Positions 14,431 to 21,444 of a DNA stretch of 33,755 nucleotides are shown piece after piece. The DNA lies in IMG/VR virus record IMGVR_UViG_3300036770_001242, positions 1 through 33,755 of that record. The stretch is one strand, 5' to 3'. The translations under genes were made by a program, and so were the position numbers. The notes beneath the pieces are model-generated. The model was not told where the DNA came from, searched no databases, and saw only the letters and a list, made by a program, of their open reading frames with translations. The first letter of the stretch is position 1, and every line of letters begins with the position of its first letter. The stretch is from a virus.

Positions 14431-14846
14431 CAGTAGTAGTTATGCCTTAAGTGGAAGTTCATTGCTTTGCAGGGCGTTTCGTATCTGTGCTTGATGTATT
14501 TGTAGGTGTGGAGTATTTGGGTAAGCGGGTCTGTGCTAGTTTCCTTAAGACGCTGACCAATCCCAAACGCTGATGAACCTTGCCTGTTCTTCGCCAGGTG
14601 GTCATACCTGCTCTCCTTCATAATGATGTAGTCTATACATCTCCACTCCATCTTACGCCATCCATAACCTGCCCAGGCTACACGTTTAGCGAGGGCTTTG
14701 TTTGCTTTCTTCTCTTCCCACGTTGCGTGTCTTGATTCTATTGCTGGCTTTTCTTTCGGTCTTAAGACTGGGGAAAGGGTGTGTGGCATTGACACCAGGA
14801 GAAGAGCACCAACCCCCACACCCACAATCGTCTTTCGTTTCATCAT
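14430..14846 (-). CDS. Exported lytic transglycosylase-like protein
   Basis: 138 residues. A basic N-terminus and hydrophobic stretch (MMKRKTIVGVGVGALLLVS) form a signal peptide or anchor. A charged linker follows, then EWRCIDYIIMKESRYDHLAKN with catalytic Glu78 and QGSSAFGIGQ, the lysozyme-like core seen in actinobacterial aggregation-promoting factors and SLT proteins. The end YKYIKHRYETPCKAMNF is the usual last helix. It would cut glycan strands, complementing the M15 endolysin, and because it is exported early it might remodel the wall or help exclude other phages. Its start overlaps the WhiB stop as ATGA. Confidence 0.75.
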   Translation of the reverse strand: MMKRKTIVGVGVGALLLVSMPHTLSPVLRPKEKPAIESRHATWEEKKANKALAKRVAWAGYGWRKMEWRCIDYIIMKESRYDHLAKNRQGSSAFGIGQRLKETSTDPLTQILHTYKYIKHRYETPCKAMNFHLRHNYY

Positions 14847-15190
14847 CTAACACCTTTGTTCAGTATCTTTCTGACGCTCCGAATTAGAATCCATTCGTTC
14901 CTATACGAGTGAAGTTTCTTTACGCCTGTTAGTTTGATTCTCTCTAGGGTAAATAGCCCACCCCAAATTATACCAGGCACCAGATTCTCCCGCTCCATTC
15001 CTTGCTCTAAGCATTGAGCCCTAACGGGGCAATCGTTGCAATACTCCAGCGCTTCTACTAGTCTTAAGACTTGAAGACGTCGCTCATCGGGGTCGTGATA
15101 ACCTTTGTAAGACCAGAGGTCAGGGTCAGGGTGCGCTTGGCATAGTGCTTGCTCGTGCCAATCAGGCACTTTTTTAACTCCCTGTATCAC
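14843..15190 (-). CDS. whiB: WhiB-like iron-sulfur transcription regulator
   Basis: 115 residues. Cys17, Cys51, Cys54 and Cys60 (LCQAHPDPDLW; YCNDCPVRAQC) form the four-Cys iron-sulfur site, and GIIWGG at 73-78 is the family's G(V/I)WGG turn before the basic C-terminal tail. WhiB proteins are almost confined to Actinobacteria and their phages, so this gene is the best host marker here. Family members bind the housekeeping sigma factor and change promoter choice; phage copies can shift host transcription. GTG start overlaps the previous stop as GTGA. The perfect palindrome GTCTTAAGAC at 15061-15070 is inside. Confidence 0.9.
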   Translation of the reverse strand: MIQGVKKVPDWHEQALCQAHPDPDLWSYKGYHDPDERRLQVLRLVEALEYCNDCPVRAQCLEQGMERENLVPGIIWGGLFTLERIKLTGVKKLHSYRNEWILIRSVRKILNKGVR

Positions 15191-15846: not shown

Positions 15847-16001
15847 TATCCTTTTCCTGTCTTAAGACGTTTGATTAAATCGTTGATAACTATTGAGCCC
15901 CACCAGAAGAGCACGGCGGTAGCGAATAAGATGAAGACATACGCGATTAGTTGTAGCAAGGCAGGGAGCCAAGCCAGTTGTATCTCAGTTAAAAAGTCCA
16001 T
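15846..16001 (-). CDS. Small membrane protein (51 aa)
   Basis: 51 residues with a long hydrophobic stretch (LPALLQLIAYVFILFATAVLF, about 12-32) ending at WW and a basic tail (INDLIKRLKTGKG). One inner-membrane span with positive residues on the cytoplasmic side is expected. The tail LKTGKG is encoded by a GTCTTAAGACAGGA element, so the repeated motif is accommodated within the protein. AAAGGAGAAATCAA precedes the ATG. Possible roles are host membrane modulation or superinfection exclusion; nothing specific is visible. Confidence 0.65.
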   Translation of the reverse strand: MDFLTEIQLAWLPALLQLIAYVFILFATAVLFWWGSIVINDLIKRLKTGKG

Positions 16002-16897: not shown

Positions 16898-16982
16898 TGT
16901 CTTTCCCTTTCTCGCAAGTGTGGAAAATAATCGCCTCTTTAGAGGTCAATTCTGCGCCACACTGTAGGCATTTTTTATTCAT
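16890..16982 (-). CDS. Zinc-knuckle miniprotein (30 aa)
   Basis: A 30-residue frame with Cys5-x2-Cys8 and His21-x-Cys23 (KCLQCGAELTSKEAIIFHTC), a complete single zinc knuckle in one of the smallest possible proteins. CTTAAGACAGGAG, the full composite element, lies upstream with 13 bases between GGAG and ATG. Its stop overlaps the next start by eight bases. The metal pattern supports a real gene despite its size. Confidence 0.6.
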   Translation of the reverse strand: MNKKCLQCGAELTSKEAIIFHTCEKGKDNE

Positions 16983-17017
16983 TGTCTTTCTCTTTCTCCT
17001 GTCTTAAGTCGTTAGGT

Positions 17018-17359
17018 TTATCGGGTTTCTTCGTAGGTCTTGATTGCTTCGCGGGCTATGATGTCGAAAGGTAGCGAACCCCAACCCTGCAGAAATTGCT
17101 TGATGTAAAGCGACGCGGTCTCGCTGATTTTCTCGGCTACGAGTTCGCCTACTTGCTCGGCTAGGCGTTCCCAATCTTCCCGCAATTTATCGGAAAGGCT
17201 CGCAACACTTGCGCCCTCTGCGTCCTCCATTAGTTGCCGATAGGCGTCGCTGTCGTTCATTGTGACGAGTTGCCACTCACTAGCGAACCAATCCGAGACC
17301 ACTAGGCGAGTGACCTCGGGGCTTAGTGTGTCCGCTTGAACCTGTGCCATTGTTTCCAT
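17018..17359 (-). CDS. Hypothetical early protein (113 aa)
   Basis: 113 residues, acidic and helical (SPEVTRLVVSDWFASEWQLV, MEDAEGASVASLSDKLREDWERL, GSLPFDIIAREAIKTYEETR). GACAGGAGAAAGACAAA precedes the ATG, and a 105-base structured leader precedes that. GC content and Arg/Ala use are higher than in the neighbouring rightward genes. No family recognised. Confidence 0.65.
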   Translation of the reverse strand: METMAQVQADTLSPEVTRLVVSDWFASEWQLVTMNDSDAYRQLMEDAEGASVASLSDKLREDWERLAEQVGELVAEKISETASLYIKQFLQGWGSLPFDIIAREAIKTYEETR

Positions 17360-17464
17360 TTTGTCTTTCTCCTGTCGTGCTGTGGGCGGATACTTTCCGC
17401 CTCGTGCCCCGCTATTGTCTCGAACAATGCGCCCTCTGTAAAGGGTGCGGGGCTGTGAGTTCCC
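17360..17464 (-). ncRNA. Structured intergenic RNA: three-way junction flanked by hairpins
   Basis: On the minus strand the gap folds almost completely. First, GTGAG-GGAA-CTCAC (17453-17466, including the TGA stop). Second, a three-way junction closed by GCCCCGC/GCGGGGC (17447-17453 and 17406-17412), with arms CCCT-ttacag-AGGG and ATTGT-TCGAG-ACAAT. Third, GGCGGA-AAGTA-TCCGCC (17385-17401). Then comes GACAGGAG and the next gene. The second arm can be drawn with a tRNA T-loop-like TTCGAGA. It lies at the same kind of position as the two hammerhead-like RNAs upstream, but has no hammerhead core. Class unknown. Confidence 0.55.
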
Positions 17465-17929
17465 TCACTTTTTGAGCAGTGCCTCTTCTCTCTTCTGTTG
17501 TGCTTTGAGGTATTTATCTTTGAGGTTCTCGGCTAGTGCGTCCAACTTTGCGCGGTCTACGCGGTGGATTCTTCTAGCCTTCTCGCTTTGTGCTAGGTAA
17601 TCGGGGTCATTCCATACCACCGAGTAAATCTTATCCGTCTCGGCGTTTGCTGTGGCGTGGATTTCTTTTTGCTTCTGTCTTAAGGCGTTAATCTGCTCTT
17701 CAATCTCGTCGGTTGCTTCTCTCGCCTTGTTCTGTATCTCTTCAATCTGTGGCAGTAGTTCCCTAATTTTGGCGTCTTTGATTGCTTCCGCCTTGTTGTT
17801 CTCGGCGTAGTATTCCTTCGAGAGGCTCGTGCGCTCCAGTCTGCTATAAGCCTCCCAGAATGCTCGGGCACGTGGCTTGCTTAGGTTTTCTTGAGCCCAA
17901 GCCCAGGGGTGGATTTTCTCGGTTGTCAC
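17465..17929 (-). CDS. Coiled-coil early protein (154 aa)
   Basis: 154 residues from GTG 17929, eight bases after CTTAAGACAGGAG. The central 60-110 region is a long charged coiled coil (KIRELLPQIEEIQNKAREATDEI, EEQINALRQKQKEIHATANAE). The N-terminal part reads HPWAWAQENLSKPRARAFWEAY and the C-terminus is basic. It may be a scaffold or partner-binding protein. It is preceded by one hammerhead-like RNA and followed by the unclassified structured RNA, so its mRNA has folded elements on both sides. Confidence 0.65.
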   Translation of the reverse strand: MTTEKIHPWAWAQENLSKPRARAFWEAYSRLERTSLSKEYYAENNKAEAIKDAKIRELLPQIEEIQNKAREATDEIEEQINALRQKQKEIHATANAETDKIYSVVWNDPDYLAQSEKARRIHRVDRAKLDALAENLKDKYLKAQQKREEALLKK

Positions 17930-17964
17930 TTGCTTTTCTCCTGTCTTAAGTCTGAAAAGTTCTG

Positions 17965-18028
17965 AGGCTCATCAGGCAGGGCGCTTACCCTGCGACCGTC
18001 GCCCCCTTGCGGGGGCTAGGTTTCGCCT
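17965..18028 (-). ncRNA. Hammerhead ribozyme, type II arrangement (downstream of SprT gene)
   Basis: On the minus strand, in order: AGGC (18028-18025), GAAA (18024-18021), stem III starting ACC and ending GGT with arm GCCCCC-GCAA-GGGGGC, the cleavage triplet GTC (17996-17994), stem I GCAGGG-TAAGCG-CCCTGC (17993-17976, perfect), CTGATGA (17975-17969), and GCCT (17968-17965). AGGC and GCCT form a 4-bp stem II. All conserved core bases (C3-A9, G12-A14, A15.1-U16.1, C17) are present. Predicted cut is between 17994 and 17993. It begins at the last A of the SprT stop codon TAA. Confidence 0.85.
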
Positions 18029-18648
18029 TATGCTCTGAAATACTCTCCGCAATTGTCGCACTTTGGGGCGCACTTTTCAAGCACCGTAGCCGATAGGCGG
18101 ATGACGCCACCGCACCCGCACCGCGCCGATTGCAGGTTCTTATTTCTGCCCTTTTTCTTGGCTTTCTCGTCGGCGCTAGCCGTTAGGCGTAGAGCGTTTT
18201 CGATAATGTCGTGAGCCTCTTGCCACCTTGTCACGCAAGAATCGGGCACCTTGGTGTCTGTCCATCCCTTGCCCTTCACTTGCCCGATTTCTAGCCCGAG
18301 ACTCTCGGCGGTAGCCTTAAAGTTCTTATTGTGATACCCGTCGCCCGAGGTGCCTTGGATTCCATTTTGAAGGTCTAGGGAGTGCGCTACCTCGTGGAGA
18401 AGAGTTCCGAGGGTGGCACGGGCGCCCCTTGCGAATGAGGGAGCGGATAGGAAAATCTCGTGAAAGTTCTCCTCGCCTGCCTGCCAGGGCTTATAGTTGG
18501 TGAAATGCCCGTGAACCTTGGAAGAGCGCCCGACGCTAATCGTGGCGCGAGGTGCTCCCGTCTTCTCTCGGATAATCGCGTGAGCGTCCTCGAGTGCCTT
18601 AGTAATCACCGAGAGATTCTCGGTCTTTTCGATTGTTGCGGTGTTCAT
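18028..18648 (-). CDS. SprT-like zinc metalloprotease
   Basis: 206 residues. HEVAH at residues 85-89 (LGTLLHEVAHSLDLQNG) supplies two zinc ligands and the catalytic Glu; His106 in GYHNKNF is the likely third ligand, at the spacing of SprT/Spartan-type proteases. The C-terminus (RCGCGGVIRL...KCAPKCDNCGEYF) is a zinc ribbon. SprT relatives act on DNA-bound proteins in cells (SPRTN removes DNA-protein crosslinks), so clearing host DNA-binding proteins is a possible role. GACAGGAG ends eight bases before ATG. A hammerhead-like RNA lies immediately on each side, an unusual setting. Confidence 0.8.
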   Translation of the reverse strand: MNTATIEKTENLSVITKALEDAHAIIREKTGAPRATISVGRSSKVHGHFTNYKPWQAGEENFHEIFLSAPSFARGARATLGTLLHEVAHSLDLQNGIQGTSGDGYHNKNFKATAESLGLEIGQVKGKGWTDTKVPDSCVTRWQEAHDIIENALRLTASADEKAKKKGRNKNLQSARCGCGGVIRLSATVLEKCAPKCDNCGEYFRA

Positions 18649-18672
18649 CTTTCCTTCTCCTGTCGTTAGCCT

Positions 18673-18728
18673 GTCTCATCAGAGGCGGGGGGCTAATCCC
18701 TACCTGACCCCCTCGCGGGGGTTTCGAC
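18673..18728 (-). ncRNA. Hammerhead ribozyme, type II arrangement (upstream of SprT gene)
   Basis: On the minus strand: GTC (18728-18726), GAAA (18725-18722), stem III ACCCCC-GCGA-GGGGGT (18722-18707), cleavage C at 18706, stem I (AGGT...GCCT plus GGG/CCC around a 7-base loop, 18705-18683), CTGATGA (18682-18676) and GAC (18675-18673), which pairs with the opening GTC as a 3-bp open stem II. The full core is intact. Stem I has one A-C mismatch and one G-T pair. Predicted cut is between 18706 and 18705, 42 bases before GACAGGAG of the SprT gene. It begins at the last G of the upstream TAG stop. Confidence 0.8.
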
Positions 18729-18844
18729 TATTTACTACAGCAAAAAAAATTTCCTTCTTGAAACTCTTTTATCTCTTCCGCCTTATCTGTCCTATAACCG
18801 CAAACCAAACACCCGACGATTTTAGGGGCTTTTTTCTCTGTCAT
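18728..18844 (-). CDS. Zinc ribbon miniprotein, first gene of the leftward operon (38 aa)
   Basis: 38 residues: MTEKKAPKIVGCLVCGYRTDKAEE...NFFCCSK, with Cys12-Cys15 and Cys35-Cys36 as metal ligands. The ATG is chosen because GACAGGAG lies seven bases upstream; a longer in-frame start at 18919 would read through that ribosome site and a conserved hairpin. It ends at the base where the first hammerhead begins, so its mRNA would end in the ribozyme's stem III after cleavage. Nucleic-acid or protein binding is inferred only from the Cys pattern. Confidence 0.65.
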   Translation of the reverse strand: MTEKKAPKIVGCLVCGYRTDKAEEIKEFQEGNFFCCSK

Positions 18845-18866
18845 TTTCTTTCTCCTGTCTTTCTGA

Positions 18867-18881
18867 GCGGATACCTTCCGC
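18867..18881 (-). repeat. Leader hairpin repeated at 17385-17401
   Basis: GCGGA-AGGTA-TCCGC on the minus strand, seven bases before GACAGGAG of the 38-residue gene. Nearly the same hairpin, GGCGGA-AAGTA-TCCGCC, lies eight bases before GACAGGAG of the 113-residue gene. Same stem, similar AAGTA/AGGTA loop and similar spacing at two loci suggest a functional 5'-UTR hairpin. Confidence 0.55.
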
Positions 18882-19422
18882 CACTCCCTCAGGGTCTCAT
18901 TTTCCGCCTTAAGTTTCAACTTTTAACCCCCTTAAATTTTGTTGCGTCGGTCACATTTTCCCTCGAACATCTGTTCTATAGATTCCCCCCTCATCTATTG
19001 GATTATTAGTTGAACTTTCAACCATTCCCGATTCATTCTAGATTCATAGCCCGCGCCTAGGGTGTCGGGGGAGGGAGTCACCTTCCCATAATTCCCTTAC
19101 ACTCCGAGAAATTGCTACGCATTCATTCTTAATCTGCTCAAAAGTCTATTTATTTATTTGTCGACAATTCTCTTATGCCTTAAGAAGAAAGAAGGGTCTG
19201 CCGTAGGAAGTGAGTCTGCCTAGATGGAGGAACCGCCTAAGGCGGTTTGACCCCACACTCGTTAAACTCTGACGTTTATATAATATATACTCACCCTAAA
19301 TATTTCTGTTATATCCCCCTAATATCTATACAATTCGGACATATAGGAGCCCAAAGGGCGACTTTCTAAAATATTTCTAGAAAAACCGTTCGGTTTTCCG
19401 ATTTGAACAGGTTATCTTATAT

Positions 19423-19460
19423 GTATAGATATTTATATATCTATACGGAGCGTCGCTCCG
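19423..19460. repeat. Paired palindromes in the divergent region
   Basis: GTATAGATAT-TTAT-ATATCTATAC is a perfect 10-bp inverted repeat (19423-19446). It runs directly into CGGAGC-GTC-GCTCCG (19446-19460). AT-rich dyad plus GC hairpin resembles the arrangement at 8268-8340. Possible operator or origin element. Confidence 0.55.
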
Positions 19461-19528
19461 CCTCTTGCGGGCTACGCGACGTAATATAATATATATAAAT
19501 AATTATATATAACTCAGGTGCCCATATT

Positions 19529-19557
19529 CTGACCGTTTACAAAGGGGCGTTTATAGT
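19529..19557 (+). promoter_or_regulatory. Candidate promoter of the head operon
   Basis: CTGACC (19529-19534) and TATAGT (19552-19557) are separated by exactly 17 bases and lie 22 bases before the terminase ATG. Each box departs modestly from the sigma70 consensus, so it may need an activator or the phage sigma-like factor. The terminase ribosome site is the G-run GGGGGT. Confidence 0.5.
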
Positions 19558-19578
19558 AGTTTTTAACGGGGGTATCTG

Positions 19579-21444
19579 ATGGGACGAAAAGCAGGAAAAG
19601 TCGACATACCAAAGCACGAAGCCCAGGAGCGGGTGCTTCAGCAACTGAGCCAAGGGTCGACGATTAAGGCGGCGATGGAGTCGGTTAACCGCAATGAGGT
19701 GACCTTCCGCCAGTGGGTAATGGCTAACCCTGACTTTAAGGAGAGAGCCGATAAGGCTCGCCTAGAGGGCAAAGGGGTCAAGGCTGACCTAAAGAACCTA
19801 AAAGAGATTTCCTTTGAAGAATTCTCTGAACAGTTCTTAGATACGAAGATTTTTCCTCACCAGAAGACCTGGATAGATTTACTTGAGGGACGGGAACCCA
19901 GTTGGGTCCACCCGTCTATGATTTTTGAACAAGGGGCTCATAACCGAGTTCTGATTAACGTACCCCCTGAACACGCCAAGAGCACGGTACTGACGATTAA
20001 CTACGTCACCTACCGAATTGCCACAAACCCTAACATCAGAATCATCCTGGTCTCCAAGACCCAGGGTATGGCACGTAAGTTCCTTTCAGCGATTAAGACC
20101 AGATTAAGCCACCCGTCCTGGATTAAACTCCAGATGGCTTTTGGTCCTAACGGCGGATATAAGGCGGACTCGCCTACGTGGTCCGCCGATATGATTTATC
20201 TAGGTACAGGTCGAGACTCTGGAGAAAAAGACCCTACGGTTCAAGCCCTAGGCTTTGGTTCTCAGATTTACGGTGCTCGTGCTGACCTGATTATCCTAGA
20301 CGATGTCGTGATGAACTCCAATGCCCACGAGTGGGAGAAGCAAATTGAGTGGCTTCAGAAAGAAGTTATCACGCGTTTGGGACGGCACGGGAAACTACTT
20401 ATCGTAGGTACCCGTGTTGCTCCCGTCGATTTATACAAGCAGATACGGGACGGCTCTAACTGGACTGGTGGTAAATCGCCATTCACTTATATGGCTATGC
20501 CAGCGGTCCTCGAGTTTGATGAGAAGCCTGCAAACTGGAAAACGTTGTGGGCAAAGACAGACCGCCTTGAGGGCGAGAATGATGAACCAGATGCTGACGG
20601 ACTTTATCCGAAATGGGATGGACCCGCGCTCTTTACTCGGCGTAGTGAAGTCGCTCCGAGCGTCTGGGCTATGGTCTACCAACAAGAAGACGTCATCGAA
20701 GACGCTATATTCGCGCCAGCAGCAGTTGCAGGATGTGTCAACGGTATGCGAAAGCGCGGACCGCTTAAACCTGGTACTCCAGGTCACCCAAAACAAATCG
20801 AGGGCTATACCGTTATAGGACTTGACCCAGCGATGACAGGAAATACCGCTGCGGTAGTTGCGACCTACAACAAGGTCGATTCGATGATTTATATTTTAGA
20901 TTGCGTCAATATGACCGACCCGACGCCTATGAAGATTAGACACCTGATTGAAGATTGGGTAGAACGCTACAGACCACAGGAACTACGAATTGAAATCAAT
21001 GCACACCAAAAAGCGTATGCGCTCGACGACGACCTGCGAAACTGGTTGTCGATGCACGGGTGCCAACTCAATTCTCACTTCACTGGTAAAAACAAGTGGG
21101 ATACTGGCTTTGGTGTGGCTTCTATGTCAACTCTTTTTGGCACTCTTAGAGATGGAAGATTCCAGGATAACAATTTAATAGAACTACCAAGCAATGAAGG
21201 TAGCGAAGGTCTTAAGGCGCTAGTCCAGCAGTTGATTACCTGGAAGCCTGAGACTAGAAATGCTACCGACTGCGTGATGGCTCTTTGGTTTGCCGTGATT
21301 CGCTTACGCGAAATGATGCAGACTGGAACCCAGCAACAGCGTTGGGTACAGAACCGATGGGCAACTAGAGCACAGACTCAGCGCAGAATGTCAGTGAATT
21401 TAGATGAAGCCATTGCCGAACAATGGCAAGAGATATACGGATAG
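19579..21444 (+). CDS. terL: Terminase large subunit with N-terminal helix-turn-helix
   Basis: 621 residues. The first ~65 residues (QGSTIKAAMESVNRNEVTFRQWVMANPDFKE) form a helix-turn-helix like that of small terminase subunits. The ATPase follows: Walker A-like PPEHAKST (129-136, Lys134) and Walker B LIILDD (Asp241, Asp242), with a coupling motif LLIVGTRV. The nuclease domain has VIGLDPAMTGN, LRIEINAHQKAY and the final DCVMALWFAV acidic residue. It translocates and cuts DNA at the portal. No separate small subunit is seen upstream, so the N-terminal domain may supply DNA recognition. The portal gene follows after six bases. Confidence 0.9.
   Translation: MGRKAGKVDIPKHEAQERVLQQLSQGSTIKAAMESVNRNEVTFRQWVMANPDFKERADKARLEGKGVKADLKNLKEISFEEFSEQFLDTKIFPHQKTWIDLLEGREPSWVHPSMIFEQGAHNRVLINVPPEHAKSTVLTINYVTYRIATNPNIRIILVSKTQGMARKFLSAIKTRLSHPSWIKLQMAFGPNGGYKADSPTWSADMIYLGTGRDSGEKDPTVQALGFGSQIYGARADLIILDDVVMNSNAHEWEKQIEWLQKEVITRLGRHGKLLIVGTRVAPVDLYKQIRDGSNWTGGKSPFTYMAMPAVLEFDEKPANWKTLWAKTDRLEGENDEPDADGLYPKWDGPALFTRRSEVAPSVWAMVYQQEDVIEDAIFAPAAVAGCVNGMRKRGPLKPGTPGHPKQIEGYTVIGLDPAMTGNTAAVVATYNKVDSMIYILDCVNMTDPTPMKIRHLIEDWVERYRPQELRIEINAHQKAYALDDDLRNWLSMHGCQLNSHFTGKNKWDTGFGVASMSTLFGTLRDGRFQDNNLIELPSNEGSEGLKALVQQLITWKPETRNATDCVMALWFAVIRLREMMQTGTQQQRWVQNRWATRAQTQRRMSVNLDEAIAEQWQEIYG

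Follow-up and report, generated by a model that had tools for sequence, protein, structure and literature searches.

Two minus-strand RNAs that bracket a sprT-like gene in a phage operon were identified as type II hammerhead ribozymes. They belong to a family that likely punctuates this operon and separates its cistrons, each RNA probably folding and cutting itself after the C of its GUC. The window, i.e., the whole stretch of phage DNA analysed, was 33,755 nt long. The features of the sprT block, all on the minus strand, were as follows.

17406..17453, minus strand: three-way-junction RNA after the 154-aa gene (own model, fold z-score, family covariation)
17465..17929, minus strand: next gene after sprT, 154 aa, function unassigned, first cistron 3' of ribozyme B
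17938..17964, minus strand: ribozyme B tail, conserved in relatives (UUCAGACUUAAGACAGGAG), with the ribosome-binding motif of the next gene at its end
17965..18028, minus strand: type II hammerhead ribozyme B, 3' of sprT (model of relatives, covariation; predicted cut 17994/17993)
18028..18648, minus strand: sprT-like gene encoding a 206-aa zinc protease (HExxH motif, C-terminal Cys pairs)
18657..18664, minus strand: ribosome-binding motif of sprT, GACAGGAG (overrepresentation in the window)
18666..18696, minus strand: pseudoknot of ribozyme A, loop I with 3' tail (sequence and covariation in relatives)
18673..18728, minus strand: type II hammerhead ribozyme A, 5' of sprT (Rfam RF02276, covariation; predicted cut 18706/18705)
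18728..18844, minus strand: 38-aa gene upstream of ribozyme A, with ATG at 18844 behind GACAGGAG at 18859-18852

Structure and setting of the two hammerhead ribozymes

The 38-aa gene ended in a TAG stop (18730-18728) and the sprT-like gene in a TAA stop (18030-18028). Ribozyme A began at 18728 and ribozyme B at 18028, each on the last base of the stop codon. In ribozyme A, the 5' part of stem II (GTC, 18728-18726) was followed by GAAA (18725-18722), a stem III of one A-U and five G-C pairs with a GCGA loop, the GTC ending at C18706, the stem I hairpin (18705-18683), CTGATGA (18682-18676), and GAC (18675-18673), which closed stem II. Its stem II was 3 bp long, and stem I was imperfect, with one G-U pair and one mismatch. 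Ribozyme B consisted of AGGC (18028-18025) as the 5' part of stem II, GAAA, a stem III with an internal loop, the GTC ending at C17994, a 6-bp stem I, CTGATGA (17975-17969), and GCCT (17968-17965), which completed a 4-bp stem II. The core CUGANGA, the GAAA, the A15.1-U16.1 pair, and the NUH site were present in type II order in both copies, with stems I and III closed and stem II open with at least 2 pairs (3 and 4 bp). Direct reading agreed with the earlier note on the full, correctly ordered cores of both minus-strand RNAs and their positions, on their start at the last base of a stop codon (18728 and 18028), on the 6-bp stem I and 4-bp stem II of the copy at 17965-18028, and on the predicted cut sites 18706/18705 and 17994/17993. 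Type II hammerhead cores cut after NUH and leave a 2',3'-cyclic phosphate and a 5'-OH.

Copy A also had a 6-bp loop I-tail pseudoknot, absent from the earlier note, in which UUAGCC of loop I (18696-18691) paired with GGCUAA of the 3' tail (18671-18666). The loop I-tail pairing of copy B was 4 bp (UAAG/CUUA) and no better than that of shuffled tails. The covariance-model scan that had been proposed gave a divided result: Rfam Hammerhead_II (RF02276) scored copy A (18729-18665) at 38.8 bits (E 1.2e-4), above the cut-off of 37 bits, and copy B at 21.1 bits, below it. Model R2, which was built from class A copies only, detected copy B of the window with 25.4 bits (E 4e-4). A match of Rfam RF00008 at 17935-17995 (14.8 bits, E 0.057) was at chance level and was rejected. 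Single-sequence folding did not favour the whole hammerhead fold of copy A.

With a loose descriptor (any hammerhead type, stems of at least 3 bp), 40 shuffled windows produced 6 type II matches, one of which had at least 12 total pairs. The window itself had two type II sites and no more, located at the two cistron junctions of a single gene. No minus-strand terminator-like site was present from 16900-19600, which ruled out intrinsic terminators as an alternative to these elements.

The SprT-like protein (PHROG 6361) matched the Pfam family with an E value of 4e-5, but its score of 23.8 bits lay under the cut-off of 25.6; the HExxH motif and the Cys pairs were conserved. The extended ribosome-binding motif GACAGGAG occurred at 12 sites in the window, with 1 expected (e.g., 18664-18657 and 17945-17938), and was common to the window and the related phages. 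Where the hammerhead stem I was absent, this motif was often directly preceded by a short hairpin (e.g., GCGGAAAGTATCCGC); hairpins of this type were found near 17390 on the minus strand of the window and upstream of the first genes in loci L002, L004, and L030. CTTAAG occurred at 37 sites in the window (e.g., 17945-17950, 17003-17008, and 15861-15866), with 11.5 expected in shuffles, often as CTTAAGAC directly before ribosome-binding sites and also within genes.

The phage of the window is of freshwater type, and a gene of the WhiB-family regulators at 14843-15190 (minus strand) points to a putative actinobacterial host. A pattern scan of host genomes returned 21 matches, none of them a relative. 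Among named phages, the sprT block had no DNA match, and only distant relatives of the SprT protein were found.

Covariation and placement in related loci

The SprT search yielded 31 viral contigs, and DNA patterns added further relatives. About 47 distinct type II hammerheads (24 of class A and 23 of class B) were obtained from these metagenome contigs, which belong to one phage group, and the counts are not independent events. The covariation score was 0.368 for class A (19 relatives) and 0.199 for class B (18 relatives), compared with 0.02-0.07 and 0.01-0.08, respectively, with slid partners. Stems I and II covaried, as did one pair of stem III in class A. Double changes were found in 10/22 class A pairs, 3/5 of the counted pseudoknot pairs covaried (19 relatives), and all six stem I pairs of class B were compensatory (18 relatives). 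The two pseudoknot halves changed together (UUAGCCU/AGGCUAA, UUGGUCU/AGACCAA, and CUAGUC/GACUAG). The compensatory stem changes that the earlier note had suggested seeking in relatives were thus strong across the roughly 47 distinct copies, the loop I-tail pseudoknot included. The tail of ribozyme B, UUCAGACUUAAGACAGGAG, was near-invariant (18 relatives).

The hammerhead core was imposed by the finder in several scans. In a scan whose pattern did not demand CTGANGA, this motif was present in 20/20 phage-junction copies and absent from 4 matches inside unrelated sequence; with a pattern that did not demand the 5' half, GAAA, the stem III hairpin, and UH were present in all 7 copies with enough sequence. 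Nucleotide 17 was C or A in the phage-junction copies, within the NUH rule. The expectation that the core is kept with the gene held for every core base wherever a hammerhead was present (20/20); in more distant phages, sprT was kept with another structured RNA instead. The RNAs might be kept simply as hairpins, serving mRNA stability, translation control, or spacing, and be hardly or not at all catalytic in the cell, in line with the score of copy B below the Rfam cut-off and with the 5' hairpins that also precede first genes without a ribozyme. However, hairpins alone would not need the catalytic core, which was invariant in the set not demanding it, and compensation in the pseudoknot is specific to fast hammerheads; this explanation is improbable.

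All 23 class B copies lay directly behind sprT, and the genes that followed came from many unrelated families. Class A copies lay behind small variable genes and before sprT or other small genes; stem II overlapped the stop codon in 21/23 of them, and GACAGGAG then followed at once. Two same-strand hammerheads bracketed one phage-operon gene in the window and in about 15 related loci. Fifteen loci had the 5' ribozyme, and in every one a gene ended about 80 bases before sprT. Of the loci without it (21, one incomplete locus being left out), 2 had an upstream gene and none was detected in the rest; several loci without an upstream gene had a promoter-like TTGA(C/A) site. Among class B carriers only, the upstream gene was present in 15/15 loci with the 5' ribozyme vs 2/6 without it (p about 0.0025, Fisher's test, relatedness ignored). 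In L006, the upstream gene was present, but the class A slot held a hairpin-rich spacer of another kind (864-940), for which Rfam gave no convincing family match. In L054, a gene overlapped sprT and the ribozyme was further upstream.

Cistron separation is the probable task of these ribozymes: each follows a stop codon and precedes the next ribosome-binding site, and loci in which sprT comes first lack the 5' one. A 5' ribozyme that occurs only where a cistron lies upstream is what would be expected of a cistron separator, and it is the strongest argument for the putative intergenic cutting. Covariation, core conservation, and placement strongly support the type II identity proposed in the earlier note and, as judged from these comparisons of sequence, the suggested role in which intercistronic cutting would free a sprT mRNA.

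RNAs with 5'-OH and 2',3'-cyclic phosphate ends are substrates of RtcB. Two ribozymes around one gene, the 3' one fixed to sprT, have the geometry that gives ligatable ends, and active hammerheads could serve RNA circles if an RtcB-type ligase joined the ends of the sprT RNA into a stable circular mRNA. Bracketing was not required, since the 5' ribozyme was absent where sprT was the first gene, and spliced or circular products were sought in similar phage arrangements and none was found (Perreault et al., PMC3088659); circularization is very unlikely. Neighbour genes turned over at conserved element positions, as joints for small-gene shuffling would allow if short conserved gene-end sequences aided phage recombination and ribozyme activity were secondary, but the core bases were intact and selection acted on the RNA fold, stem sequences changing while pairing was kept, which would leave less DNA identity for recombination and makes this the least credible account.

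A three-way-junction RNA at the same gene end

The 3' junction of sprT carried a hammerhead in 23 loci and a three-way-junction RNA in 20, never both. More distant relatives kept sprT without any hammerhead and had the three-way-junction RNA behind the sprT stop, whereas hammerhead phages usually also carried this RNA one or two genes downstream (17453-17406 in the window). The window copy scored 70.3 bits with model R1, which had this copy among its own sequences, and had a fold z-score of -5.3. The RNA consisted of a 7-bp stem (GCC...GGC), a short hairpin, and after it a second hairpin of 5 bp whose loop was [U/G]C[A/G], and was flanked by ACA and AC(G/U/A)(A/G). An invariant C was located in the last loop and another two bases past the outer stem.

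In phage gene gaps, 89 distinct copies were found (e.g., L005 2543-2599, L008 3640-3697, and L094 3768-3826); they mostly lay 6-16 bases past a stop codon, and starts followed after about 47 bases. Double changes occurred in 15/17 pairs, and the covariation score was 0.443 vs 0.03-0.11 with slid partners in the 89-copy alignment, which was fitted to the structure; the first MAFFT alignment of 35 members gave 0.360 vs 0.02-0.07. No match to Rfam was obtained even at E 10. A pattern scan for the window type of this RNA gave no match, the pattern probably being too strict. The deposited phage record OX376640.1 had three copies, placed around small genes in an operon of similar kind; the 5.2 kb examined contained no SprT-like ORF.

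The 7-bp acceptor-like stem and a distance of 12 nt from loop to stem end were shared by 42 of the 44 elements with a UUC/UGC loop, and both the fixed distance and the stem resemble the acceptor-T arm of tRNA. In contrast to the canonical T-loop UUCRANN, the [U/G]C[A/G] loop had a variable first base and A, C, or U at position 58, and the 3' flank AC[G/U/A][A/G] was unlike the CCA end of tRNA. A tRNA or T-loop was rejected on the loop statistics, and because the loop is not a canonical T-loop the element is not confidently called tRNA-like. ARAGORN found no tRNA in the window, and Rfam gave no tRNA match for this RNA. A theta (HDV-like) ribozyme was also rejected, as the pairs expected after the 7-bp stem were absent by reading.

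Other phages of the group apparently meet the same need with this different structured RNA. It is conceivable, although somewhat doubtful, that two interchangeable processing elements punctuate the operon, namely type II hammerheads and a 48-nt three-way-junction RNA that would itself be a novel self-cleaving ribozyme or else a minimal tRNA-like RNA cut by a host RNase; interchange at the same gene end would then mean that both cut the mRNA or cause it to be cut. In mitochondrial transcripts, tRNA punctuation works by RNase P and RNase Z cuts at structured RNAs in the gene gaps, which free single mRNAs. This offers a possible analogy for the three-way-junction RNA, whose cutting is hypothetical and which is itself no tRNA.

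Predicted processing of the operon and comparison with known systems

When the minus-strand operon is transcribed, each ribozyme would fold and cut after the C of GUC, giving an mRNA of the 38-aa gene, a 712-nt sprT mRNA, and a downstream mRNA. On the predicted sprT mRNA, the 5' terminus would be formed by the ribozyme A stem I hairpin and bear a 5'-OH, and the 3' terminus by the ribozyme B stem III hairpin with a 2',3'-cyclic phosphate. Each released cistron would retain its own ribosome-binding site, and the hairpins at the new mRNA ends may slow nucleases.

The arrangement, which the earlier note considered unusual, is not new: Perreault et al. (2011; PMC3088659, Figure 3) described prophages in which multiple hammerheads flank single genes or short blocks of genes and proposed that these ribozymes process long phage transcripts, so that both a hammerhead-bracketed phage gene and its interpretation were already published. 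There, three phage-like loci were reported to show cleavage in vitro and one in E. coli, which raises the prior for cutting here. The prophage hammerheads and those of the window share the permuted type II architecture, several copies that bracket single phage genes, and the loop I-tail pseudoknot (copy A in the window). This pseudoknot, described for type II hammerheads in PMC3088659, is a hallmark of the type, although common rather than universal. The published copies are associated with other genes (ardA and others), and the main text does not mention sprT. Class B differs from them in lacking a strong pseudoknot and in a conserved internal loop in stem III.

In gut phages, theta (HDV-like) ribozymes at tRNA 3' ends (PMC10879173) are likewise small self-cleaving phage RNAs for RNA processing, but they belong to a different ribozyme class and do not lie between protein genes. 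Searches of the open-access literature returned no account of hammerheads next to sprT and none of the three-way-junction RNA, and subscription papers may differ.

What is new here is that the ribozyme is fixed to a gene, depends on a cistron upstream, and is exchanged for a previously undescribed RNA. Compared with the 2011 report, the 3' copy keeps to a single gene in many phages, staying with sprT in the loci compared despite the turnover of its neighbours; the 5' ribozyme appears tied to an upstream gene; and a second kind of RNA replaces the 3' copy in relatives. The purpose of intergenic phage hammerheads has been a standing question since 2011, and a ribozyme that is tied to one gene, is confined to loci with a cistron upstream to separate, and is exchanged for another RNA in relatives makes the operon-cutting idea directly testable. 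The exchange also draws attention to a new structured RNA, which may be a ribozyme of a new kind or a cutting signal that resembles tRNA.
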